From Candidatus Kapaibacterium sp. (GTDB lineage Bacteria; Bacteroidota; Ignavibacteria; Kapaibacteriales; WFXC01), in contig JALWJX010000086.1 of the NCBI GenBank assembly GCA_026996895.1, forward strand, positions 1-44,198: a stretch of DNA of 44,198 nt, given 5' to 3'. The position numbers and the translations under genes were made by a program. Positions 5,396 through 23,123 of this stretch are shown here, in pieces. The notes beneath the pieces are model-generated. The model was given only the letters and a program-made list of their open reading frames with translations, ran no database searches and had not been told where the DNA came from. Each line of letters opens with the position of its first letter. Within the stretch, counting starts at the first letter, position 1.

Positions 5396-6403
5396 ATGAA
5401 AGATGTTTTATCACAGCAGGAAATCGACCAACTACTGGCGAGCATTCAGAGCGGGGAGGTGCCGGTTGATCAACTGATCCAGCAGGGAACGCAGAAGCAT
5501 AAGGAGGTGCAGTTATACGATTTCCGCCGACCGAATCGCTTATCCAAGAATCAGCTCCGAACGATCCAGACGCTGCACGAGAATTTCTCCGAATCCCTGT
5601 CCTACTATCTGGTTTCGCAATTGCAAACGGTGGTAACGATCAATGTGATTTCCGTCGATCAGCTTTTTTACTCCGAATACATTTTGTCTGTTTCAAGTCC
5701 CAGTTGCCTGTATGTCTTTGATGTGGTTGGTACAGAGGGCAGTGGTATTTTAGAGCTCAGTCCGCAGTTGGCTTTAGCCATTATCGCACGGTTGTTAGGA
5801 GGAGATATCGAAATTACCCGTTCGCCGCGTGTACTGAGTGCCATTGAACAGACGATTCTGCGAAATGTCGTAGATCAGATTATGCGACAATTGTCGGAAA
5901 CCTGGCAGGTGATCTATCCATTGAAATTCCGGCTGGATCGGTATGAGAGCGAAGCGGATTTTGTCCAGATTGCTCCTTCTTCGGAAATCGTGATCGTCGT
6001 TGTGTTTGACGTTACCTTAGGCACGCATACTTTCTCGATGAGTTTATGCTATCCGACTTTTACTCTGGAAAATGTACTGGCACAAATCGGATGGCGCCAC
6101 TTAACCGCTGGCATTCGGGTGTCTCCGGAGAAACAGAAAGAAGATCGGGAATTGATTCGCCGCCGAATCGAGAAAACCCAGTTGCCGGTCGTGGCGGAGC
6201 TGGGGCATGCGTATATTACGGTCAAAGAACTGCTGGAGCTCAAAGAAGGGGATGTGATCAAATTGGATACCCGCATTGATGATGAACTTCGTCTCATCGT
6301 CGGTGAGCGACCGAAATTTGCAGTGCGTCCAGGAGTGCTCGATGGCAAGCGGGCAGTCCGAATCCTGCGCGAGCTAACAAGTGAAGATTTGATGGAGGAA
6401 TAA
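5396..6403 (+). CDS. fliM: Flagellar motor switch protein FliM
   Basis: The 335 residues match the family length. The N-terminal LSQQEIDQLLASI (about 5-17) is the conserved CheY-P binding peptide. LYDFRRPNRLSKNQL (about 40-54) opens the middle CheC-like domain, and the C-terminal 80 residues form the SpoA domain (IEKTQLPVVAELGHAYITV at about 258-276). FliM forms the C-ring with FliN and FliG and reverses or modulates rotation when CheY-P binds. The gene starts 6 nt after fliL and is followed 24 nt later by fliN, so it is within one operon. No defect is seen. Confidence 0.96.
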   Translation: MKDVLSQQEIDQLLASIQSGEVPVDQLIQQGTQKHKEVQLYDFRRPNRLSKNQLRTIQTLHENFSESLSYYLVSQLQTVVTINVISVDQLFYSEYILSVSSPSCLYVFDVVGTEGSGILELSPQLALAIIARLLGGDIEITRSPRVLSAIEQTILRNVVDQIMRQLSETWQVIYPLKFRLDRYESEADFVQIAPSSEIVIVVVFDVTLGTHTFSMSLCYPTFTLENVLAQIGWRHLTAGIRVSPEKQKEDRELIRRRIEKTQLPVVAELGHAYITVKELLELKEGDVIKLDTRIDDELRLIVGERPKFAVRPGVLDGKRAVRILRELTSEDLMEE

Positions 6404-6427
6404 AGTGGAACAACGGAGGGTAAAGCC

Positions 6428-6844
6428 ATGACGCAAGAGGAAATTGATGCCCTAATTGAAAGCGGAGCGGCGGAAAAGTTAGCCGAAATGGCAGAGCAGC
6501 AGGCGGAGGAAGTACAACCTGCTGAGGTGGAGAAAGCAGAGTTTCCGGAGTTGTCAGAGAAGCCGCCAGAGCCCACAGAGCTTAGTCCGAAGTTACAATT
6601 GCTGCTGGACATTCAACTACCTGTCTCCATTGAGTTGGGACGGACAAAAATGTATATTCGGGACATCTTACAGCTTACTCGAGGGTCAGTGGTCGAATTT
6701 GAAAAGCTGGCAAGTGAGCCGGTCGATCTGCTGGTGAATGGGAAGAAAGTTGCTGAGGGGGAAATTGTGGTCATCGATAAACACTTCGGTATCCGGATTA
6801 CTTCACTGGTCGATGCGGCTGAGCGAGTCAAAGCCTTGCGCTAA
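6428..6844 (+). CDS. fliN: Flagellar motor switch protein FliN, with FliM-like N-terminal peptide
   Basis: The 138-residue protein ends in a SpoA domain (about 58-137): LLLDIQLPVSIELGRTKM, then RDILQLTRGSVVEFEKL and VDLLVNGKKVAEGEIVVID, which is classic FliN. It forms the lower C-ring with FliM. The N-terminus MTQEEIDALIES resembles the CheY-binding peptide of FliM (here LSQQEIDQLL) and of FliY-type proteins, and is joined to the SpoA domain by a Glu-rich linker of about 45 residues. The ATG at 6428 has GGAGGGT 9 nt upstream. The stop codon overlaps the ribosome-binding region of fliO. Confidence 0.95.
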   Translation: MTQEEIDALIESGAAEKLAEMAEQQAEEVQPAEVEKAEFPELSEKPPEPTELSPKLQLLLDIQLPVSIELGRTKMYIRDILQLTRGSVVEFEKLASEPVDLLVNGKKVAEGEIVVIDKHFGIRITSLVDAAERVKALR

Positions 6845-6850
6845 GGATTG

Positions 6851-7198
6851 ATGGAAACTTCGCTAATTCAAAGTGTGGCAATTTTGATTGGGGCCATTGG
6901 GGCACTCCTGATCGTGTGGCTTGTGGTCAAGCGGTGGAGCGCACGGGCGTTGCAAATGCCCCGAGGACGCGTTCGGATCCGGGTACTCCAGCGACTGCCA
7001 CTTGGACAGCGCCGAGAGATTATGGTCTTCCAAATAGACACAACGATTTTCGTTGTCGGCGTCACCGATCATCAATTCACCGTTCTCCAGCGCCTTTCGG
7101 TCGATCAGGAAACGTTCGCAAACGAGCCTCCTTCCTCCTCCGGTGATTATTCCATCAAAGCGTTCCTCCATTCCCTTCGAACGCCGGTGCCAAAGTAA
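6851..7198 (+). CDS. fliO: Flagellar biosynthesis protein FliO
   Basis: A 115-residue protein with one N-terminal membrane helix (about residues 5-26) and a short basic cytoplasmic domain with RVRIRVLQRLPLGQRREIMV and TTIFVVGVTDHQFTVLQRL, the usual FliO/MopB pattern. FliO helps assemble the FliP ring of the flagellar export apparatus. The ATG at 6851 follows AAGGATTG next to the fliN stop; a TTG at 6848 would add one residue. Position after fliN is conserved in many genomes, but fliP, which usually follows, is not in this window; the flagellar run stops here. Confidence 0.85.
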   Translation: METSLIQSVAILIGAIGALLIVWLVVKRWSARALQMPRGRVRIRVLQRLPLGQRREIMVFQIDTTIFVVGVTDHQFTVLQRLSVDQETFANEPPSSSGDYSIKAFLHSLRTPVPK

Positions 7199-10803: not shown

Positions 10804-10992
10804 ATGGCAGAAGAGCGGCAGCAATCTGAGCGCTTTTCGATGTTGCAAACCATTCTGGATGAACCGATTGTGTTGTTATTCCTGGGCGTTGCGATCTTTG
10901 TCATCTTCTATCTAACGTGGGGCTTGATCGAGGTTTCGAACGTTCCGCAGTTTCCGGAAGAATTGAAGTCGGTGATAATGGGAGGGCAATAG
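10804..10992 (+). CDS. Small one-helix protein, subunit IIa-like
   Basis: 62 residues with a polar N-terminus, one transmembrane helix (about residues 23-43, IVLLFLGVAIFVIFYLTWGL) and a short tail. Its size, single helix and place directly before a CuA subunit II fit the small subunit IIa of B-family (ba3-type) heme-copper enzymes, which packs against subunit I and replaces the first helix of the long form of subunit II. The stop is 2 nt before subunit II. There are no catalytic residues to check, so the call rests mainly on context. Confidence 0.65.
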   Translation: MAEERQQSERFSMLQTILDEPIVLLFLGVAIFVIFYLTWGLIEVSNVPQFPEELKSVIMGGQ

Positions 10993-10994
10993 CC

Positions 10995-11618
10995 ATGACA
11001 CTGATTCCGCCGAAAGAAGGATGGGTGTGGCAGAAGGTAGCGACCGATGAAAAAGGATGGGTTGCGGTAGCAACCTTTGTGTGCTTCTTTCTCTTTTTCT
11101 GGATGATTGGATGGCATTCTTTTGGGCGGCAGAATCCGTCGAACATTACGTATCGGGCATCCGTGCCAGAATATCTGGAGTTGTACAATGCATATCTGGA
11201 GAACAATCAGGTTGGTGAAGACAATGGATTACCAGTCGTTGCGCCGGAGCCCGGTTCACACGTATTCTTTACCGCGCGTATGTGGCAATGGGCACCGGTG
11301 GTGCTACTGAAGAAGGGCGAGACATACACGTTTCATCTGTATTCTCTGGATTTGCTCCACGGTTTTTCCCTCCAGCCGGTGAATATGAACTTTATGGTGT
11401 ATCCCGGTTATGATTACGTTCTGCGGTTTACGCCGACGGAAGCGGGAGAGTATAAGATTGTTTGCAACGAATTCTGCGGTATCGGTCACCATATGATGAT
11501 CGGTAAGATCATCGTAGCAGCCAATGATCAGGAGTATCAGAAAATCCTGCAAGCGTATGAAAGCGAGTATTTTGAAGATGAAGATGGAGAAGTTGTTGAA
11601 CAAGAAGGAGAAAAATAA
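10995..11618 (+). CDS. Heme-copper reductase subunit II with CuA site
   Basis: 207 residues: one membrane helix (about 21-40) and a periplasmic cupredoxin domain. The CuA ligands are complete: His122 in LLHGFS and CNEFCGIGHHMM, giving Cys157, Glu159, Cys161, His165 and Met168. It should receive electrons from a cytochrome c or another periplasmic donor and pass them to the hemes of subunit I. The single helix and short domain are typical of ba3-type subunit II. The ATG at 10995 follows GGAGGGCAATAGCC; the frame is open further upstream, but that would overlap the IIa gene. The C-terminus is a 20-residue acidic tail. Confidence 0.92.
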   Translation: MTLIPPKEGWVWQKVATDEKGWVAVATFVCFFLFFWMIGWHSFGRQNPSNITYRASVPEYLELYNAYLENNQVGEDNGLPVVAPEPGSHVFFTARMWQWAPVVLLKKGETYTFHLYSLDLLHGFSLQPVNMNFMVYPGYDYVLRFTPTEAGEYKIVCNEFCGIGHHMMIGKIIVAANDQEYQKILQAYESEYFEDEDGEVVEQEGEK

Positions 11619-13298
11619 ATGGCAGAATTTCGTACGTGTGACATTACGGGTTTCAAAGTCGATCGATTAGCAGAAAAGTTGATCCGTTCTCACGCTGTGT
11701 GGGCGGTGGTGTCATTGTTGATTGGAATTACCGCTGCTTTGCTGCTGGTCTTTACCCGGTGGCAGTCGGTGCACTTGCTCAGCGCCGATTGGTATTACCG
11801 GATTCTTACCCTTCACGGCACCAATGCGTTGATTTTCTGGATCATCTTTTTTGAAATTGCCGGCTTGTATTTCGGTTCCACAGTCGTGCTCAACGCCAGA
11901 GTGGTGACGCCGCGGATGGCAAAGCTTGGATTCTGGCTGATGTTCGCCGGCTTTCTGTTAACTGACATTATGATTTTTGCTGGAGAAGCTGATGTGCTGA
12001 TGACTTCGTACGTACCGCTGAAAGCACATCCGCTCTTTTACCTGGGAATTATTCTGTTCGCCGTTGGGGCATTGATTGGTGTGATTGTGTTTTTCCTCAA
12101 CATCATTGTCGCGCGGCGGGAACAGAATCTGCGATCTTTGCCACTCTTTACATTTGGATTAGTTGCAGCGGCTATCATTGCGGTGATTAGTATTGCCAGT
12201 GGCGCGATGATTTACATCCCCACCTTTTTCTGGTCCTTAGATATCGGCGTGTTTAAAAATCTGGACCCCGCGACGTACAAACTGATCTGGTGGGGATTGG
12301 GACACGGCTCGCAGCAGATTAATGTCACGGCGATGGTATCCATCTGGTACTTAGTCGCATTTCTGACCGTTGGTGGATTTTCGATCAACGAGAAAGTATC
12401 CCGCGTGGCATTTTTGTTTTATATCCTGTTCATCTGTCTGGCATCGGCACACCATATTCTGGTGGATCCTGCAGTCAGCTCCTCGTGGAAAGTGTGGAAT
12501 ACCAGCTATGCAATGTATCTGGCAGTGCTGGCATCGATGATCCACGCGTTCGCTGTTCCTGCAACGATCGAAGTTGCACAGCGGCAGCGAGGGTATATCC
12601 GGGGATTGTTTGAGTGGTTGGCTAAAGCACCCTGGGGCAATCCAGCGTTTTCAGCCATTGTACTGGCAATTATTGGATTTGGGTTTATCGGAGGAATTAC
12701 CGGCGTGATTTATGGGATGGAACAAACCAACATCATTGTCCACAATACGCTGGCAATTCCGGGACACTTTAAGGGAACAGTGGTCTTTGGGACAACGCTG
12801 ACTTTTATGGGCGTGACCTATTACCTGATCCCGCTGATCTTTCGCCGAAAGATTGTGGGATTTAAGTGGGCACAGATTCAACCCTGGCTCTTTGCTATTG
12901 GCATTGGTATTGTGGCAATTTCAATGATTGTTCTGGGCGTCTTTGGTGTTCCCCGCCGACATTGGGATATTACCTTTTCTGGTGGTCCCTTTACCCATGC
13001 CTTTAATCCCGTTGCAGATTTCTTCTGGGTGACTTTTGCCATTGGGGGAACTTTGGCATTTACTGGTGCGCTCATCTGGGTCCTCATTGTTGTCATCTCC
13101 GTGTTCTTCGGACCGAAGGTTAACGGACCAGAAGATATGCAACTGCCAATTGCATCGCCAGTGGCATTGCCCGCAGAGTCCGGTAAGAAGTTCCTGGCGC
13201 CCGGAACCTTTACGTTAACGTTGGTCTTTTTAGCTGTTTTCATCCTTCTGTTCTTCCTGAACTGGAAGTGGCTGGCAGCGACATGGTACGTCGGATAA
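11619..13298 (+). CDS. B-family heme-copper reductase subunit I, atypical active site (oxidase or NO reductase)
   Basis: 559 residues with about 13 membrane helices. It aligns with ba3-type subunit I: LTLHG (His66, low-spin heme ligand, helix II), YVPLKAHPLFYLG (131-143), CuB ligands His229 and His278-His279 (ASAHHILVDP), and IPGHFK (His383, high-spin heme ligand). Two normally invariant positions differ. The residue four after His229, the Tyr cross-linked to His in oxygen reductases, is Gln233 (GHGSQQIN). The second His of the helix X HxH pair, the other low-spin heme ligand, is Lys385. Loss of the Tyr is a hallmark of NO reductases, several families of which evolved from oxygen reductases and kept a CuA subunit. 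The enzyme therefore reduces O2 or NO; I lean to an eNOR/sNOR-like NO reductase or an uncharacterised relative, but a tree is needed. The SCO gene overlaps the end by 16 nt. Confidence 0.85.
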   Translation: MAEFRTCDITGFKVDRLAEKLIRSHAVWAVVSLLIGITAALLLVFTRWQSVHLLSADWYYRILTLHGTNALIFWIIFFEIAGLYFGSTVVLNARVVTPRMAKLGFWLMFAGFLLTDIMIFAGEADVLMTSYVPLKAHPLFYLGIILFAVGALIGVIVFFLNIIVARREQNLRSLPLFTFGLVAAAIIAVISIASGAMIYIPTFFWSLDIGVFKNLDPATYKLIWWGLGHGSQQINVTAMVSIWYLVAFLTVGGFSINEKVSRVAFLFYILFICLASAHHILVDPAVSSSWKVWNTSYAMYLAVLASMIHAFAVPATIEVAQRQRGYIRGLFEWLAKAPWGNPAFSAIVLAIIGFGFIGGITGVIYGMEQTNIIVHNTLAIPGHFKGTVVFGTTLTFMGVTYYLIPLIFRRKIVGFKWAQIQPWLFAIGIGIVAISMIVLGVFGVPRRHWDITFSGGPFTHAFNPVADFFWVTFAIGGTLAFTGALIWVLIVVISVFFGPKVNGPEDMQLPIASPVALPAESGKKFLAPGTFTLTLVFLAVFILLFFLNWKWLAATWYVG

Positions 13299-14032
13299 TA
13301 GTGCTTGCTGTATGGTGGATACTCTGCCAAATTGCAGGGTGGAGTGATACAGCGAAGCCGTATACCGATCATTCTGGAGCCGTGCTACCCCCTATCGCGG
13401 TTTTCGACGAGCAGGGAGATTCCTTCTCCCTGCTGTCTCTTTTTAACACGCAGCCAGTTTTATTGCTCCCGATTTATACTTCGTGTCCTCATTCCTGTTC
13501 CGCTATTACCGAAGGGTGGAAAGAAGCGCTGGAAACACTGGGAGAGCCAGGAAAGAGCCTCACCGTGATCACCTTCTCATTTGATCATCGGGACACTCCG
13601 GCAGACCTGAAGCGTTTCCGCCGGCGGTGGAAACTGCCAGTGGATAGCTGGTATGTGGTTTCCGCAGATTCCGCAGCGATCGATACGCTGCTGGCAGCGA
13701 TTGGGATGCCGGTGCGCTGGGATGATCGACTGCAAATCTATACCCACCCGAATTTAGCGGTTTTTTTGACAGCAGGTGCTCGAATTTCCAGTTACTATGT
13801 TGGGGTGAGCCCGGATCCCGGATCAATTCGTAAGGCGATTACAGCAGCGTCTCAGAACCTCCAGGGAATATCCTGGTGGGATCGGGCGTGGACCCAGTGT
13901 TTTGTCTATGATCCAGTGACTGGAGAGATTCAGTTTGATGTTTCAATCCTTATTCACCTGGCTGCTGGAATCATTGTTCTGAGCTCCCTGATCTTCTTTT
14001 TCCTTCGCAATCGGGTCAGAGCAGCGCGGTAA
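13283..14032 (+). CDS. SCO1/SenC-family copper chaperone, membrane-anchored
   Basis: 249 residues from the ATG at 13283, inside the end of subunit I. A signal sequence or N-terminal helix (1-20) is followed by a thioredoxin-fold SCO domain with copper ligands Cys68 and Cys72 (YTSCPHSC) and His155 (YTHPNLAVFL). A C-terminal transmembrane helix (about 219-241) with a basic tail anchors it, which is less common than N-terminal anchoring. SCO proteins load copper into the CuA site, and in some B-family systems help CuB. Overlap with subunit I and 1 nt spacing to the next gene show it is part of the operon. Confidence 0.92.
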   Translation: MVRRIIVLAVWWILCQIAGWSDTAKPYTDHSGAVLPPIAVFDEQGDSFSLLSLFNTQPVLLLPIYTSCPHSCSAITEGWKEALETLGEPGKSLTVITFSFDHRDTPADLKRFRRRWKLPVDSWYVVSADSAAIDTLLAAIGMPVRWDDRLQIYTHPNLAVFLTAGARISSYYVGVSPDPGSIRKAITAASQNLQGISWWDRAWTQCFVYDPVTGEIQFDVSILIHLAAGIIVLSSLIFFFLRNRVRAAR

Positions 14033-14033
14033 A

Positions 14034-15527
14034 GTGCAAGTAACAACGGTGCTGAGAATGCAGAGTTTTCTTGTGAAAGGACATCGTTTGTATTTGCGTG
14101 TTGCAGCGAAACTCAATTGGATTACCGGAACCGATGAGAATCCACTGTATTTTTCCGGACAGCTTTCCTTTGTCACTTTTTTGATCGCCGCTCTGTCGGG
14201 AATTTATCTGTTCATTTTCTTCCAGATCGATCCGGCAGTAGCATATCAATCCGTTGAGGAGATTTCATCGACCCTTCTGGGAAGTTTGATGCGGGGAGTA
14301 CATCGGTACAGTTCCGATGCCTTTATTGTTTTTAGCCTGATTCATTTTCTCCATACGTTGCTGCTGCGGAAATACCACCTGAAAATTGCGTGGTTTTCTG
14401 GTATCGTGATGATCTTTGTAATGGGATTGATTGGATTGTCGGGCTTTATCCTGGTGTGGGATGCAAAAGCAAAGTTGCTGGGGCTGTTGTCTGCTCAGTT
14501 GTTGACAACGTTACCAATTTTTGAACCAACGTTGCCCATTGCTTTTGTGCTCAAAGATCCGCATTTGTTGGGAGGCTTCTTTCGCGTGATGCTATTTGCC
14601 CACTTGTTCTTCTCCCTGGGGGTGCTGATTCTCTTCTGGATTCACGTGATGCGGATGAACGCTGTGCGGTTGTTGCCACCGCGGAACATTACGCTGGGTC
14701 TTCTGGCGCTGTTTGGTATCCTGGCGCTGATTGTCCCCGTCCGCAGTGATCCACCAGCGACCAGTTTATTTTTGCCGCTGCATACCACGTGGGATTGGTA
14801 TTACTTTGCTGGCTATCAACTGTTGCGCTGGTTCTCACCAACACTGGTCTGGATTCTCTGGGTCGCTGCTGGTATTGTATTGTTTGCCTTACCGTTTCTA
14901 CCGAAAGTACAGGAGCGATTAGCGCTTTCGGTTCCAGAGATTGATGTTGAGCAATGCGATGGATGCCGACAGTGTTATCTGGATTGCCCCTATTCTGCCA
15001 TTACGATGCGTCCCACAACGTCGGAATTTCTGGGACAGTCGCAACGACCCGTTTTCAAAGCTTCGATCGATCCAGCGCTGTGCGTTCGATGTGGCATTTG
15101 CATTGCTTCCTGTCATCTTCAGGTGATTTCTGCACCGATGCCGGAACCACTGCCTGCGCAAGAAGCAGAAGCATCGCTGGTGATTTATGCCTGTGGCTCA
15201 TCCCTGACGGTAGAGGAACTGCACGAGCTGCGCAAATATGGGACGGTCCAGCCACTGGCGTGCATTGGCGATCTGCATCCAGCAATGGTGGCTGAGCAAT
15301 GGAGAACAGGGCAATACAGTGGGGTGATGTTATTGCATTGTGAGCGATGCTACTATCGGCTGGGACCTCAGTGGACGCAATTGCGGCTGAGCCGGTACCG
15401 CCGTCCTCAGTTGCCGAAGGACGTTCCAACAGAGAGCATTGCAATGTGTCCAACGTCAGCTTCCGTAGCTGAATGTCTGGCAGCGTTTCAGCAACAAAGC
15501 GAGCAGATAAATGAGCCTGTTCAGTGA
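14034..15527 (+). CDS. Cytochrome b - 2x[4Fe-4S] ferredoxin - MvhD/FlpD-like fusion protein
   Basis: 497 residues (GTG at 14034; an ATG at 14058 would remove eight residues). Residues 1-215 are a bc/b6f-type cytochrome b: heme ligand pairs His90/His104 and His190/His204, each 14 apart, on helices B and D. A short subunit IV-like part follows, with WDWYYFAGYQLLR (253-265) where cytochrome b has PEWYF..Y..LR. Then come two [4Fe-4S] motifs (Cys308, 311, 314, 318 and Cys350, 353, 356, 360). The last 110 residues resemble the iron-sulfur protein MvhD/FlpD, with four cysteines at 387, 410, 436 and 439. It could move electrons between quinone and a soluble Fe-S or flavin partner at the membrane. No Rieske protein is nearby. 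The next gene overlaps its end by 17 nt. Confidence 0.85.
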   Translation: MQVTTVLRMQSFLVKGHRLYLRVAAKLNWITGTDENPLYFSGQLSFVTFLIAALSGIYLFIFFQIDPAVAYQSVEEISSTLLGSLMRGVHRYSSDAFIVFSLIHFLHTLLLRKYHLKIAWFSGIVMIFVMGLIGLSGFILVWDAKAKLLGLLSAQLLTTLPIFEPTLPIAFVLKDPHLLGGFFRVMLFAHLFFSLGVLILFWIHVMRMNAVRLLPPRNITLGLLALFGILALIVPVRSDPPATSLFLPLHTTWDWYYFAGYQLLRWFSPTLVWILWVAAGIVLFALPFLPKVQERLALSVPEIDVEQCDGCRQCYLDCPYSAITMRPTTSEFLGQSQRPVFKASIDPALCVRCGICIASCHLQVISAPMPEPLPAQEAEASLVIYACGSSLTVEELHELRKYGTVQPLACIGDLHPAMVAEQWRTGQYSGVMLLHCERCYYRLGPQWTQLRLSRYRRPQLPKDVPTESIAMCPTSASVAECLAAFQQQSEQINEPVQ

Positions 15528-16104
15528 TATTCGAGCAGTTCTCAGTACTAAACGGCAGCAGAAACAGCGGCAGGAAGAGAAGCTCCATCATCCGAAGATT
15601 CAGGTGCTGGGGCATTATCCGACAAATTTTTTCCTCCTGACTGGGTCCATCGCGATTCTGGGCGTACTTCTGTGGGTTGGCAGCACGTGGGAGTATCACT
15701 GGTACCGAACAGATACCGGGTATTTGGTGTTTGCCATTTCGTATGTTTCCACTACGGTAGAGCAATACCACCCAAAAGCGAAGCTAAAGCATATGACGCA
15801 GAAAGTGGTCATTTCCCAGCGCCGTTCACCGATCCGATTGACAGTTTATGATGAGGACAGGGACACCGTCTTGTACGATGCGATCCATCGCCCGCGCGGA
15901 ATTCGGGAAGATGCTGCCATTATGTTCTACGAAGAAATTCCGTGGGTGGGAAAAGTATCGGTCACGCTGGAGGAAACAGCTTTTCCAGAAAAGCGACAGC
16001 AGTTGCAACATATCATTGTTTCCCCAGGGGAAACGGTTGTGGTATTGACAGAAGACAACGCTTTGAAGGTTGTGGGAAGCGCATTTCCGGAGAGCACAAG
16101 ATAG
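15511..16104 (+). CDS. Unknown one-helix membrane protein, last gene of the respiratory operon
   Basis: I do not recognise this 197-residue protein. A basic, Gln-rich N-terminus (1-35) precedes one transmembrane helix (about 40-60); the remaining 135 residues are probably extracytoplasmic and beta-rich, with SPIRLTVYDEDRDTVLYDAI and VSPGETVVVLTEDN. No cysteines or heme motifs occur in the soluble part, so it is not obviously an electron carrier. The ATG lies within the end of the cytochrome b fusion gene (17-nt overlap), so it is almost surely co-translated and may be an accessory or assembly subunit. The last six codons and stop are imperfectly duplicated 67 nt downstream. Confidence 0.7.
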   Translation: MSLFSDIRAVLSTKRQQKQRQEEKLHHPKIQVLGHYPTNFFLLTGSIAILGVLLWVGSTWEYHWYRTDTGYLVFAISYVSTTVEQYHPKAKLKHMTQKVVISQRRSPIRLTVYDEDRDTVLYDAIHRPRGIREDAAIMFYEEIPWVGKVSVTLEETAFPEKRQQLQHIIVSPGETVVVLTEDNALKVVGSAFPESTR

Positions 16105-18152: not shown

Positions 18153-21100
18153 TTACCGTTGCGATCCTACTGCACCATACTGAACGCGTTGGCTTGGGCG
18201 CACGATTGAGAGGATGTACTGCTGCATGGTAACAAGGCGGACAAGCTGCTCTTGCAGACGGAAAATTTTTTGCTGGAGTTGCTCAATGGTTGCCTGCTGT
18301 TGTTCGATGATGCTGTGCTGTTGCTGGAGTGCCGCCGTCAAAATGGGAATGAGCTGTAGGTAGCTGATACTCCACAGATCCGATGCATTCTGCGGTGCTT
18401 CCACCGCTTCAGGTACCACCTGTGCCAGTTGTTGTGCTAAAAATCCGTAGCGGTCTTCACCCGTCGGCGATACCATCAATTTGCCGTTTTCCCAGCGGGT
18501 ACTATGCTGATAGTAGTGTACCGGTTGCATTCGGAGAACGACCGCCAGCGCACTGTCAATAGGACGGATACGGCTTTTGATCCGATCGTCTGAATACGTG
18601 ACCCAGTCATTTGCTCGCGCCTTGCCAATGGTATTGGTCGTATTATTGGGAAGTTCCAGTGCATAGGTTGGCGAAGAGACGTTGATTCCGACAACAAAGG
18701 TTTGTCCGTAGGGGGCGATCAGGAAAGCATTGGCAGTCGTAATTGCTGATGTGGCTAAGGCATATCCCCATACGAAGGTATGGGTTGCGGAAGTTGAGAG
18801 ACACATACTCTTGCCGCCGACCCAACTGTAGGCTCCGGCAGCAGTGTTCGATTGTCCATTGGCAACGGCGCTGTAAGCTCCAGCAGCGTTGTTCGATGCT
18901 CCACCGCCCACGGCACTATAGTTTCCAGTCGCCTGATTGGCGAATCCACCGAGCACACCGCTGTAATTGCCGGCAGTACGATTGGAGTCCCCACCGGCAA
19001 TAGCAGATCGTTCTCCGGACGCAACATTGTGGATGCCACCAGCAATGGCAGCGTAGGCGCCAGAAGCAGTGTTGGATGCACCGCCACCAATTGCCGAAGC
19101 ATTGCCCGAAGCAGCATTACTCAGCCCACCGCCAATAGTGCTATGACTTCCTGAGGCAGTATTATCCGCTCCACCGCTGACAACTGTGTAGGCACCAGAA
19201 GCGGTGTCGCGGTATCCACCGCCTACCGTTGCGTACAGAGCAGACGCAAGATTTTCCTTGCCGCCACCAATGGTCCCATAGGAATTGGATATCCGGTTTG
19301 AACGTCCCCCACTAATCGTGGCGTAGCGGGCAGAGACTGTATTACTGAATCCACCGCTGATAGTACTTGCTGAATCTGAAACTTTATTGACCGATCCACC
19401 GCCAACGAAGGCGAAGGGAGCGGAGGCAGCGTTGTAAGCACCGCCACCGACAAAGGCATAATCAGTGGAGGCGGTATCGCGATATCCACCGACTGCAGTG
19501 CTGTACTGTCCACCAGCTTTGTTGTAAGCACCGCCACCGGTGAGACTATAGCTTCCGGTTGCCTGATTTCTGTACCCACCTACAACGGCGCTATAGCTTC
19601 CCGTTGCTTCGTTGGTCGATCCGGCACTCACGCCACTATAGTTGCCAGTGGCTTTGTTGGAATATCCTCCGGTAACACTGCTGTAACTTCCCGTACTTTC
19701 ATTAGAAGCCCCACCAGCGATAGCAGCATATTGACCCGATGCTGTGTTGCGGTTTCCACCGCCAATGAAACTGTAGTTTGCTGAAGCCTTGTTGGAGTTT
19801 CCACCGCTGATGACTGCGTACGAACCGGAGACCGTGTCCTTATATCCGCCGCCGATGTGAGCATAGTTGCCAGCAACCAGATTACCATCGCCTCCGACGA
19901 TACTCCCTGCGGTGCCGGATACTTTGTTGTGCTGTCCGCCCAGAATTGCACCCCAGTCGGCAACGACGGCATTGGAATCTCGAAAGCTGGGACCACCACC
20001 GCCACCGACCACACCGTATTTTGCAAAGACGACATTATGGTGACCACCGCCGACGAAACTCCAGGGTGAGTTGTTCCCAATGATGTTATAGTCTCCGCCA
20101 GCAATTGTCGAGGAAGTACTGTGGGAAAAGATAATGTGATATTGCCCGCCGCCGATTGTGCTATAGGGGCTGGAGATAGAATTGTTATATCCGCCCCCGA
20201 TAACGTCGCTTGCAGCATAGGTTTCATTAGCGAATCCGCCACCGACAAAGCACCCATAATCCCCTCGATTGAAACTACCACCCCCAATCGTTGCAGCGAA
20301 TGCAACCGCTTGGTTGTAATATCCGCCACCAATAAAGGCAAATTCGGCGAGAGGACTGATTGAATTGCTGTATCCACCAGCAATAGTTGCACCTGGACTG
20401 CTAAATCCAATGGTGTTAATATTTCCACCACCGATGAAACTGTAATTGGAGTTTTCCTGAATGGTGTTGTATTTGCCGCCGACCAGGGTGCTGTACGAAG
20501 CGGAGGCTCTGATGGTATTCTCATAACCTCCCCCAATAGTACTCAACTGAGCACTGGTAACAATCGTATTGTTTTCTCCGCCACCGATCGTTGCAGCAGT
20601 TGCAGAGGGGTAAATAAGGTTGCGCTTGCCCCCGCCGATGCTGGCGTACGGTGACTGAATGCGGTGTTGCTTGCCACCCAGAATTGCACCCCAATCAGCA
20701 GCGATGGAGTTGGAGTCCGCTGCGCTGCTTCCGCCGCCGCCGGCGATGACAGCGAAATTCCCCCGTGCTTTGTTGTAGCCACCACCGCCAATTCTTGCCC
20801 CTTGCTGCTGCGCGAGGTTTTTGTATCCACCGCCAATACTGGCATAGGTTTCCCCAACAGTGTTGCTATCGCCGCCGCTGATGCTTCCGTAGCTACCCGT
20901 GATGGTGTTCAAGCGACCACCTCCAACGGCAGCGTAGGAAGCGGAAGAGCGAATGGCGTTACGATCGCCACCACCAATCACTCCATACGATGCGTTGGCT
21001 TGAATCTCATTCGCATTGCCGCCGCCGATTACACTATATTGAGAACCCGTGGCAACGAGATTTGTTTGTCCGCCTGTAATGGTAGCAGCCGTTGCGTTGC

Positions 21101-23123
21101 CGTAGATGGTGTTTTGCAGTCCGCCGATGATTGTGCCATAAGGAGCCTGAATACGGTGCCGCTTGCCGCCCAGGATGGCGCCCCAGTCGGCAGTGATCGA
21201 ATTAGAGTCGGTAATGCTGCTCCCACCGCCGCCGGCAATGACAGCAAAATCGCCGTAGATCCGGTTGAAGTTTCCACCGCCGATAGTGCCGTAATCGCTG
21301 GAAATAATATTGTGTTCGCCACCGCTAATGGTAGAAAATTGGGTGTTGGCTTTGATCGTGTTTGAGGCGCCACCACCGATCGTTGCGCCTCTGGCGTTGG
21401 ATAAGATTTCATTGACACTTCCGCCGCCGATCGTTGACCATTGCGCAAGGTTCCCAATGTTGTTATATTCGCCGCCGCTGATGGATGCGCCACCAGCAGA
21501 ATTGCCAATGTCATTGCCCAAACCACCACTGACTGTAGCGCCGGGAGAGAGCATTCCGATGTCATTTCCTTCACCACCGCTGATCGTTGCGGATGTGGAA
21601 TGTTTGCCAATGTCGTTGTTGTCTCCACCGCCAATGGTTGCTGTGACAGCAGAACTGTCGATGTCGTTGTAGTATCCACCGCTAATCGTTGCATAATCAC
21701 TCTCAGCCAGAATATCATTGTTGTAGCCGCCGCCAATGGTTGCGCCATCGGCGTCTTCTCCAACATCATTACGTTCGCCACCGCTGATTGTTGACCGTGG
21801 AGCGAAGTCTGCAATACTATTGTAGTAACCACCTGAAATGGTGCTGTTCCAACTGTAAGTGCCGATGTCATTGTATTTGCCGCCACTGATGGTGCTGTGT
21901 TCAGATTCTGACTGTATGGCGTTGCCCCATCCACCACCAATGACGGTGTACGGCGAACGAAGTTCGTTACTTCGTCCTCCGCCGATCGTTCCGTAATCCG
22001 CATTGTAGAAAATATCGTGTGAGTAGCCACCTCCAATGGTACCGCGGTTGCTCTCGATAGTGTTGAAATATCCACCGCTAATTGTCGAGTAATCTCCGGA
22101 AACCTCGTTGCGCCGTCCGCCGCCAATGACGCTATAGTCTCCGCTGGCAACATCGTTGTTGCTGGTTCGCACCATTTGCAGGTCGATTGCATACTTTCCG
22201 CGAGCATTGCCACCAGTGTCTCGCTGAATGCTTCCGTTCGTGTTCCACTGAAATACCTGCTGGTTATTGACCCGAATGCGAAGAGGCGCGTTGTTCAACG
22301 TACCCAGAAATTCATTGCTGGAAATCAGATTGCCGCTGGTTGTCCATCCGGCTGTTCCACTGGTTCCACCGCCTCCGCTGACCGTTGCCGGTTGCCATTG
22401 GGAGCCATTCCATTGCAAAACCTGTCCGGTGCTGGGCGCCGTGTTAGCTACCGGATAGCCTCGAAGGGCAATTACCGTAGCGTTGGTCACTGGTCCAGTT
22501 AAGTCCCCGCCGGCGTTCTGGGTCGCACCTCCACCGATCGTTGCTGGCTGCCATTGCAAACCGCTCCACTGAAGCACCTGTCCAGTGCTGGGTGCAGCCG
22601 TTGCAATAGGACGTCCCTGCAATTGAGCAGCATTCCATAATGGTTGATCAGCCTGTGCTGAGATCGTCAGGTTTGTTGCTGAAGCACTGAGCGTGATTCC
22701 CGTTCCAGCCGTAAAGAGCGGGAATATGTTGCCAGTGGTCACGGTTTCTACCCATTGAGAGCGGAAGCTGTAGGGAGTAACGCCCAGCGGAATACGCGGG
22801 GATAGTTCGTTGCCGTTCCCAATTGTAATGCCCAGGTAGTATTGCTGCCGGAAGTCTAAGTTGAGCGCCGTATTCGAGCCCAACAGGACGGAAAACAGAC
22901 CGTTCTGAACCGTTACATTTTGCGTTTCACTCCAGAGCGCAGTACCACCGGAACTGGTGGTGTACAGTTTGAAGGTCAGTTGATAGGTGCCGTCTGGAAC
23001 AGCGACGTTGCCGCTTGTCGTGAGCATTCCTTGAAAGGGAATTTTCGAAGGAAAACTTTGCGACCACAGAGAAACAGTGCCCAGAATCAGCAGCAAAAAC
23101 GTGTACCGTATCGTTCCTTTCAT
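18153..23123 (-). CDS. Giant secreted beta-roll fibre protein with C-terminal S74 intramolecular chaperone
   Basis: 1656 residues. A signal peptide (about 1-22, cleavage near LWSQ) is followed by an N-terminal domain common in Bacteroidota fibre proteins (IPFQGMLTTSGNVAVPDGTY, later SPRIPLGVTPYSFRS). Two linker repeats APSTGQVLQW.G.QWQPAT come next. Residues about 320-1437 consist of roughly 70 repeats of 14-19 residues with core TIGGGxxN, like the YadA-head left-handed beta-roll. The last 150 residues are an S74/endosialidase-type chaperone: SDDRIKSRI at about 1510 holds the Ser and Lys expected for self-cleavage, LAQQLAQVVPEAV follows, and a terminal coiled coil of Gln-rich heptads ends it. 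Such chaperones trimerise the fibre and then cut themselves off. No other phage gene is near, so this is probably a cell-surface fibre rather than a tail fibre. The ATG at 23123 follows GAGGGACGCG. Confidence 0.88.
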   Translation of the reverse strand: MKGTIRYTFLLLILGTVSLWSQSFPSKIPFQGMLTTSGNVAVPDGTYQLTFKLYTTSSGGTALWSETQNVTVQNGLFSVLLGSNTALNLDFRQQYYLGITIGNGNELSPRIPLGVTPYSFRSQWVETVTTGNIFPLFTAGTGITLSASATNLTISAQADQPLWNAAQLQGRPIATAAPSTGQVLQWSGLQWQPATIGGGATQNAGGDLTGPVTNATVIALRGYPVANTAPSTGQVLQWNGSQWQPATVSGGGGTSGTAGWTTSGNLISSNEFLGTLNNAPLRIRVNNQQVFQWNTNGSIQRDTGGNARGKYAIDLQMVRTSNNDVASGDYSVIGGGRRNEVSGDYSTISGGYFNTIESNRGTIGGGYSHDIFYNADYGTIGGGRSNELRSPYTVIGGGWGNAIQSESEHSTISGGKYNDIGTYSWNSTISGGYYNSIADFAPRSTISGGERNDVGEDADGATIGGGYNNDILAESDYATISGGYYNDIDSSAVTATIGGGDNNDIGKHSTSATISGGEGNDIGMLSPGATVSGGLGNDIGNSAGGASISGGEYNNIGNLAQWSTIGGGSVNEILSNARGATIGGGASNTIKANTQFSTISGGEHNIISSDYGTIGGGNFNRIYGDFAVIAGGGGSSITDSNSITADWGAILGGKRHRIQAPYGTIIGGLQNTIYGNATAATITGGQTNLVATGSQYSVIGGGNANEIQANASYGVIGGGDRNAIRSSASYAAVGGGRLNTITGSYGSISGGDSNTVGETYASIGGGYKNLAQQQGARIGGGGYNKARGNFAVIAGGGGSSAADSNSIAADWGAILGGKQHRIQSPYASIGGGKRNLIYPSATAATIGGGENNTIVTSAQLSTIGGGYENTIRASASYSTLVGGKYNTIQENSNYSFIGGGNINTIGFSSPGATIAGGYSNSISPLAEFAFIGGGYYNQAVAFAATIGGGSFNRGDYGCFVGGGFANETYAASDVIGGGYNNSISSPYSTIGGGQYHIIFSHSTSSTIAGGDYNIIGNNSPWSFVGGGHHNVVFAKYGVVGGGGGPSFRDSNAVVADWGAILGGQHNKVSGTAGSIVGGDGNLVAGNYAHIGGGYKDTVSGSYAVISGGNSNKASANYSFIGGGNRNTASGQYAAIAGGASNESTGSYSSVTGGYSNKATGNYSGVSAGSTNEATGSYSAVVGGYRNQATGSYSLTGGGAYNKAGGQYSTAVGGYRDTASTDYAFVGGGAYNAASAPFAFVGGGSVNKVSDSASTISGGFSNTVSARYATISGGRSNRISNSYGTIGGGKENLASALYATVGGGYRDTASGAYTVVSGGADNTASGSHSTIGGGLSNAASGNASAIGGGASNTASGAYAAIAGGIHNVASGERSAIAGGDSNRTAGNYSGVLGGFANQATGNYSAVGGGASNNAAGAYSAVANGQSNTAAGAYSWVGGKSMCLSTSATHTFVWGYALATSAITTANAFLIAPYGQTFVVGINVSSPTYALELPNNTTNTIGKARANDWVTYSDDRIKSRIRPIDSALAVVLRMQPVHYYQHSTRWENGKLMVSPTGEDRYGFLAQQLAQVVPEAVEAPQNASDLWSISYLQLIPILTAALQQQHSIIEQQQATIEQLQQKIFRLQEQLVRLVTMQQYILSIVRPSQRVQYGAVGSQR
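18810..22160 (-). repeat. About 70 tandem beta-roll repeat units inside the fibre gene
   Basis: Counting the cores xIGGGxxN, xISGGxxN and close variants gives about 70 units of 42-57 nt. Units in the N-terminal part are longer and contain DI/NDI spacers; those in the C-terminal third are a regular 15 residues of the form NxASGxYSxIGGGxS. A larger module (SNSx..ADWGAILGG) is inserted three times. Confidence 0.9.

Follow-up and report, generated by a model that had tools for sequence, protein, structure and literature searches.

Heme-copper enzymes differ in one residue of the active site, which is a tyrosine in oxygen reductases, a glutamate in cNOR and qNOR, an asparagine in sNOR and CuANOR, and an aspartate in gNOR (Table A4 of PMC8756737). 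That paper identifies eNOR by a glutamine at the tyrosine site and describes it, citing Hemp & Gennis 2008, as a glutamine-type NO reductase with a cupredoxin subunit. PMC11388526 refers to Murali et al. 2024 for the biochemical characterisation of eNOR.

We analysed a stretch of 44,198 nucleotides from Candidatus Kapaibacterium sp. (hereafter the window), in which the gene at 11619-13298 is predicted to encode subunit I of this known eNOR-type NO reductase family, a protein that would reduce NO. It has in common with eNOR the glutamine at the tyrosine site (Gln233), the CuB and high-spin heme ligand positions and the cupredoxin subunit II. It differs from the His-type members, which have His385 in 42 of 42 sampled sequences including the locus L093 discussed below, by a lysine at this position (Lys385). 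Gln233 is already explained in print, and the novelty rests with Lys385. A low-spin heme held by two histidines is generally regarded as a fixed trait of heme-copper enzymes.

Subunit I and its diagnostic residues

The reading frame is open throughout and encodes 559 amino acids of the B-family heme-copper type (Table 1). Its best relatives in the PDB are the subunit I chains of the T. thermophilus ba3 oxidase (phmmer, E ~6e-44), with which it shares the fold and the other metal ligand positions (1XME and others). The phmmer alignment pairs H66, H229, Q233, H278, H279, H383 and K385 with H72, H233, Y237, H282, H283, H384 and H386 of ba3, whose numbering and roles we assume here. The ba3 tyrosine is cross-linked and its low-spin heme bis-His, unlike the window protein. 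The preliminary description of this gene had listed the CuB histidines (229, 278 and 279), His383 and His66 as retained, Gln233 as standing at the site of the cross-linked tyrosine and Lys385 as replacing the second low-spin histidine. The ba3 alignment confirms each of these, as do, for the two substitutions, the 82 of 84 aligned rows with glutamine, the AAG codon and the presence of the lysine in 53 public loci.

An AlphaFold2 model, made with 47 natural sequences, has a mean pLDDT of 89.4 and a pTM of 0.90. It has the heme-copper fold, and most of the chain aligns with ba3 and other oxidases (E 4.7e-21 in Foldseek against 3s8f_A; VIA Z-scores of ~36 with ba3 chains and as high as 37.7 with an aa3 chain). 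His66, Arg446 and Arg447 are invariant in a 47-row alignment; we take the role of the two arginines from the arginine pair of ba3.

The combination of features is that of eNOR: glutamine for tyrosine, three CuB histidines and the high-spin heme histidine, and an adjoining CuA subunit II. The cross-linked tyrosine of ba3 and other B-family oxygen reductases is replaced by Q233, and the protein lies outside the Tyr clade. Q233 also differs from the residues of sNOR, gNOR and CuANOR (bNOR), which have Asn, Asp and Asn, respectively. Of the two low-spin heme histidines typical of the superfamily, a trait that the eNOR marker in PMC8756737 does not include, H66 is kept and the second is replaced by K385. 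cNOR and qNOR, to our knowledge, lack CuA. They have glutamate where the window protein has glutamine (PMC8756737), and the reaction would be common to both.

Table 1. Respiratory operon of the window and diagnostic positions of subunit I
Feature	Coordinates	Strand	Evidence
Membrane protein of 62 aa with one helix, probably a minor subunit of the enzyme	10804..10992	+	Translation; similar ORF in relatives
Subunit II, CuA cupredoxin	10995..11618	+	NCBIfam CoxB E 4e-13, below curated cut-off; motif LLHGF ... CNEFCGIGHHMM
Predicted eNOR catalytic subunit I	11619..13298	+	Pfam COX1 E 1e-63; Gln clade in tree, 100/100
His66 (helix II), first ligand position of the low-spin heme	11814..11816	+	Aligned to ba3 H72; invariant in 47-row alignment
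His229, CuB ligand position	12303..12305	+	ba3 alignment; relatives
Gln233 replacing cross-linked Tyr, eNOR hallmark	12315..12317	+	ba3 alignment; relatives; PMC8756737
His278-His279, CuB ligand positions	12450..12455	+	ba3 alignment; relatives
His383, high-spin heme ligand position	12765..12767	+	ba3 alignment; relatives
Lys385 (AAG), second low-spin-heme ligand position	12771..12773	+	ba3 alignment; codon read; relatives
SCO/SenC copper chaperone, CxxxC	13283..14032	+	Pfam SCO1-SenC E 2e-7
Cytochrome b6-like, two-[4Fe-4S] ferredoxin domain and C-terminal cysteine-containing domain, fused	14034..15527	+	Pfam Cytochrome_B, Fer4 families
Family-less protein, operon end	15511..16104	+	No Pfam match; similar ORFs in L003, L022 and L054

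Placement in the eNOR family

A scan of species genomes returned 508 stretches with a relative. Keeping the best 80 of these biases the sampling towards sequences close to the window. The closest relative among these 80 is from a Candidatus Kapaibacterium MAG (99%). Glutamine occupies position 233 in 82 of the 84 rows aligned from this set, the other two being paralogues. For the tree, 118 rows were cut to 66 by dropping rows at least 90% identical to a kept row, rows shorter than 480 aa, one masked row and one paralogue, and columns 379, 385 and 386 were excluded.

In the 66-row tree, a branch with 100/100 support separates 58 Gln rows from 8 Tyr rows. The window protein groups with known eNOR, in a clade that includes L091-L092 and the near copy L093, which belongs to genome G008. 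This genome carries the exact 6f0k_C sequence, and we take 6F0K to be from Rhodothermus marinus. The eNOR that was purified and characterised is reportedly the R. marinus enzyme.

The loss of the tyrosine had been read in the preliminary description as a mark of NO reductases, and glutamine at this site is indeed the published hallmark of eNOR (PMC8756737). The preliminary description offered two options, a family of NO reductases that is little known and a terminal reductase whose chemistry is altered. The former agrees best with the glutamine, the tree and the genome context described below (NirS, NosZ and two other oxidases with the Tyr motif). The outcomes that it named as contrary, namely another tyrosine in the active site, another low-spin histidine and placement within the ba3 oxidases, appear in neither the alignment nor the tree.

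Distribution of the lysine

At position 385, the first 84 aligned rows (from the best 80 of 508) have lysine in 55, histidine in 28 and a masked residue in one. The 55 lysine rows are the window's own gene, present twice, and 53 public loci, which are named as Bacteroidota or its groups, Kapaibacterium, Aquificota/Aquificaceae and Bacterium HR21. Thermus and other extra sequences were taken from plasmid records. The resulting 118 distinct rows have, at positions 233 and 385, Gln/Lys (66), Gln/His (42), Gln/masked (1), Tyr/His (8) and Phe/His (1). Position 385 can thus be read in 108 distinct sequences of the Gln type, where it is lysine in 66, histidine in 42 and never another residue.

Two of the 66 lysine sequences are from T. 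thermophilus plasmids; the other 64, from Bacteroidota, Kapabacteria-like bacteria and Aquificota, belong to a single clade with 100/100 support. All of these Lys-type eNORs combine Gln233 and Lys385 as in the window, with no difference in diagnostic residues. Lysine sequences outside Thermus are 66-100% identical to the window protein and histidine sequences 43-64%. The T. thermophilus plasmid records label the Lys-type eNOR 'cytochrome c oxidase subunit I'. Genome G826, which encodes a Lys-type eNOR (L130), contains the PDB chain 4ij5_A exactly, and we take 4IJ5 to be from Hydrogenobacter thermophilus.

Lys385 is not general within eNOR. The eNOR of the R. marinus-identified genome (L093) has histidine at this position and is 45% identical to the window protein. 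In the GTDB phylum of the window, 395 genomes were searched, and the 16 matches comprise the window, one 99% relative and 14 of the His-type. The 136 genomes of the Aquificota phylum gave 21 matches, 20 of them with lysine and the remaining one a fragment that ends before the site. Sampling of eNOR was thin in Chloroflexota (one Thermomicrobium, L146, with histidine) and Pseudomonadota (one Defluviimonas, L145, with histidine, and two Bdellovibrionota-type loci); none of the Halobacteria sequences read has the glutamine. Given that the eNORs of Chloroflexota, Pseudomonadota and Halobacteria are sparsely sampled, Lys385 could be more widely distributed.

A search of the open literature, the coverage of which extended to papers other than the main eNOR paper (Murali et al. 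2024), gave, among the papers listed, no lysine at the low-spin site of eNOR or other heme-copper enzymes. The word 'lysine' is likewise absent from the main text of PMC8756737. The eNOR family is known and the lysine variant is the new point, which may be mentioned in the main eNOR paper. In one paper that the search returned, the lysine is the K-pathway residue. One survey included eNOR in its reference set, and that Lys-type eNORs were among those it dropped is a guess on our part.

Gene neighbourhood

The operon runs from the small membrane protein through subunit II, subunit I, SCO and the cytochrome b/ferredoxin fusion to the protein at 15511-16104. The small conserved protein of about 60 aa at 10804-10992 was missed by the 80-aa ORF list; its stop lies 2 bases before the start of subunit II, for which comparison with relatives favours ATG 10995 over GTG 10917. 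We take its product to be comparable to subunit IIa of ba3. Of 65 eNOR loci from outside Thermus, 64 have a small hydrophobic ORF where subunit II begins, as do 50 of 50 Lys-type loci; the ORF was chosen by a hydrophobicity rule, and homology is argued from a common motif. The SCO start at ATG 13283 was chosen by eye, the listed ORF beginning at GTG 13268. The cytochrome b6/ferredoxin fusion is a possible electron module for eNOR; a PDB search with its C-terminal part returned nothing better than E 0.64.

Across 54 Lys-type loci (including L048, where position 385 is masked), the neighbours are subunit II in 50, SCO in 52, the fusion in 53 and a Crp/Fnr-like regulator, recognised by eye, in 32. 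Three of the seven cases in which subunit II, SCO or the fusion was missed were recovered by a six-frame search (subunit II in L046 and L049, SCO in L049), and the remaining four sit at contig ends. These counts are given for Lys-type loci only because the ORF picker missed subunit I in 6 of 26 His-type loci. The same gene order, with the addition of a heme O synthase, is found in the His-type Defluviimonas plasmid record.

Elsewhere in the window, FliM-, FliN- and FliO-like flagellar genes were recognised by eye upstream of the respiratory operon (5396-7198). The reverse strand at 18153-23123 encodes a protein of 1656 aa in which, again by eye, 'IGGGxxN'-like units are numerous and one end resembles an endosialidase chaperone.

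Denitrification context

Three heme-copper oxidase matches were found in the genome of the window, which is 2.7 Mb in size and 97.5% complete: this eNOR and two proteins with the GHP..Y motif, the tyrosine motif of oxygen reductases. The eNOR is therefore the sole candidate NO reductase of the heme-copper superfamily found in this genome. The same genome encodes NirS (PF02239, 412 bits, with a CAGCH motif and near an iron-sulfur repair protein) and a clade-II NosZ (982 bits, with NosD- and NosF-like neighbours recognised by eye), both on contigs other than that of the window. NirK was not detected above the cut-off in this genome.

We surveyed the pathway in 51 genomes with a Lys-clade eNOR, in one of which (G404) the site is masked. 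NosZ is above the cut-off in 43 of the 51 genomes, NirK in 22 and PF02239 in 16 (12 of them above 260 bits); NirK above the cut-off and PF02239 NirS above 260 bits occur together in none of the 51. Neither strong nitrite reductase is found in 17 of these genomes, one of which (G967) has a NirK fragment under the cut-off. Among 14 control genomes, the counts above the cut-off are 0 for NosZ, 1 for NirK and 1 for PF02239. The co-occurrence of nosZ and nir with the Lys-type eNOR is pathway context and not a test.

In a hand-picked set of 12 Lys-type genomes, 9 have a nir gene on the contig of the eNOR and within ~7 kb of it, 2 have nir on a different contig, and none was found in the remaining genome. 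Six of the 12 are related Aquificota, all of them among the 9 with linkage. eNOR is also near a nitrite reductase gene in two of three T. thermophilus plasmid stretches. In the H. thermophilus-identified genome (G826), nirS is 2.5 kb and nosZ 7 kb from eNOR. This genome also encodes a cNOR-like pair, an HLWVE protein (Pfam COX1, no NCBIfam match) with a c-type neighbour. The HLWVE motif and a NorC-like neighbour are, we assume, marks of cNOR. Given this pair in the same genome, we dropped the idea of crediting H. thermophilus denitrification to the Lys-type eNOR.

Proposed ligation of the low-spin heme

The window protein is probably a working eNOR that retains its low-spin heme between His66 and Lys385 and reduces NO. 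Electrons would be taken up by CuA in subunit II and relayed by the low-spin heme (His66/Lys385) to the high-spin heme (His383) and CuB (His229, His278 and His279), where the reaction 2 NO + 2 e- + 2 H+ -> N2O + H2O would take place beside Gln233. The position of Lys385, the exclusive use of lysine or histidine at this site and the lack of a clear substitute ligand all suggest that the lysine serves as the sixth ligand of the low-spin heme. A change from histidine (CAY) to lysine (AAR) takes at least two base changes, and that only these two residues occur despite this is expected if the site must furnish a ligand. The invariance of His66, Arg446 and Arg447 supports retention of the heme.

His/Lys-ligated hemes, with lysine as the sixth ligand, are found in the thiosulfate dehydrogenase TsdA and the algal truncated hemoglobin THB1, which are soluble and unrelated to heme-copper enzymes. 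The judgement in the preliminary description that a His/Lys or single-His low-spin heme would be unusual still stands, with His/Lys ligation as our proposal. Speculatively, lysine ligation might shift the potential of the heme or provide a ligand that responds to pH or redox state.

The alignment of relatives has no histidine or cysteine conserved in the Lys clade alone. Met367 is the one methionine in the membrane part whose conservation is peculiar to the main Lys clade, and it is serine in the Thermus Lys-type; Met507, in the C-terminal tail, is present in 46 of 55 lysine rows. H375 was considered as a replacement ligand and rejected, because this conserved histidine is common to eNOR and the ba3-type paralogue in the window's genome. 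As candidates for residues coupled to the lysine, we examined A70, M367, Gly386 and Ala379. Only columns 385, 432 and 508 pass a filter of more than 85% in the Lys clade, a majority in the 2 Thermus sequences and less than 20% in both His groups.

An unlikely alternative, which still deserves attention, is an eNOR that reduces NO without Lys385 as a steady ligand, the heme being five-coordinate through His66 or the lysine binding in one redox or pH state. Lysine is mostly protonated at neutral pH, and a protonated lysine would leave a five-coordinate heme; the Lys clade also has other residues around position 385 (Gly386, Ala/Ser379). However, Gly386 and Ala379 occur in His-type Rhodothermus-like eNORs and are thus not tied to the lysine, and the restriction to lysine and histidine in 108 distinct sequences is hard to square with a needless ligand.

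That the protein is a terminal oxygen reductase with a lost tyrosine and altered heme ligation is very unlikely. The B-family fold and relatives would suit such an enzyme, and CuA and SCO genes are common to oxidases, but the site has glutamine and the protein groups with the Gln-type sequences, apart from the Tyr-type. Moreover, two Tyr-motif oxidases are already present in the genome, and this protein is the only heme-copper candidate found there for the step from NirS to NosZ. Loss of the low-spin heme, with electrons passing directly from CuA to the active site, might be suspected from the substitution of one ligand and seems more improbable still, since His66 would then be expected to drift, whereas it is invariant together with Arg446 and Arg447 in the 47 rows. 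An artefact of sequencing or assembly, or decay of the gene, was conceivable for a contig from a draft assembly of 138, but is refuted by the lysine in 53 public loci, on T. thermophilus plasmids and in 20 of 21 Aquificota matches, of which the remaining one is a fragment.

Origin of the lysine

The tree bears on how often the lysine arose. The 100/100 clade of the window has lysine in 23 of 23 rows of the 66-row tree; its nearest neighbour is the His-type row L062 (85/88), and the outgroup has histidine. The two Thermus lysine rows join four Rhodothermus-like histidine rows (90/76), so the best tree requires two changes. The tree program warns that long branches meet at this Thermus/Rhodothermus-like node. 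Forcing all 25 lysine rows together costs 25.4 log units with an AU p of 0.089, and a single origin is therefore not rejected at 5%, which weakens the argument from convergence.

We propose, tentatively and with slightly more doubt than belief, a lineage of respiratory heme-copper enzymes with a His/Lys low-spin heme. The trait would have been adopted independently at least twice (Bacteroidota/Kapabacteria/Aquificota and Thermus), in NO reductases and not in the sampled oxygen reductases, and would tune electron delivery to NO chemistry. The lysine lineage, which spans Thermus, Aquificota and many Bacteroidota genomes, would then be a natural experiment on heme potential in relation to NO and O2 chemistry.

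Other heme-copper-like genes near eNOR

A second heme-copper-like gene lies beside eNOR in six Aquificota genomes and one Cyclobacteriaceae genome and was not found in the genome of the window. Counted by locus, such a protein is encoded near eNOR at 1 of the 53 Lys-type loci and at 6 of the 27 others. Examples are L204:1595-2893 (reverse strand), L209:2448-3725 and L218:4506-6515 (reverse strand, fused to SCO), as well as L055:6367-7854, L057:3192-4670, L059:11713-13224, L063:10692-12083 (reverse strand), L076 and L077. Those that were aligned keep the low-spin and high-spin histidines and one CuB histidine, and are without the His-His pair.

Three further proteins were noted by eye. Two of about 445 aa from Bacteroidota, L212:358-1689 (G399) and L215:397-1737 (G404), are oxidase-like and seemingly without the first CuB histidine (QWKSYGS...), with the HH pair kept. 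The third, the 493-aa product of L214:347-1828 (G404), is heme-copper-like and of the B type; it has GRTLVN at the expected place of the GH motif, perhaps with arginine for the first CuB histidine, and retains HH and AHFH.
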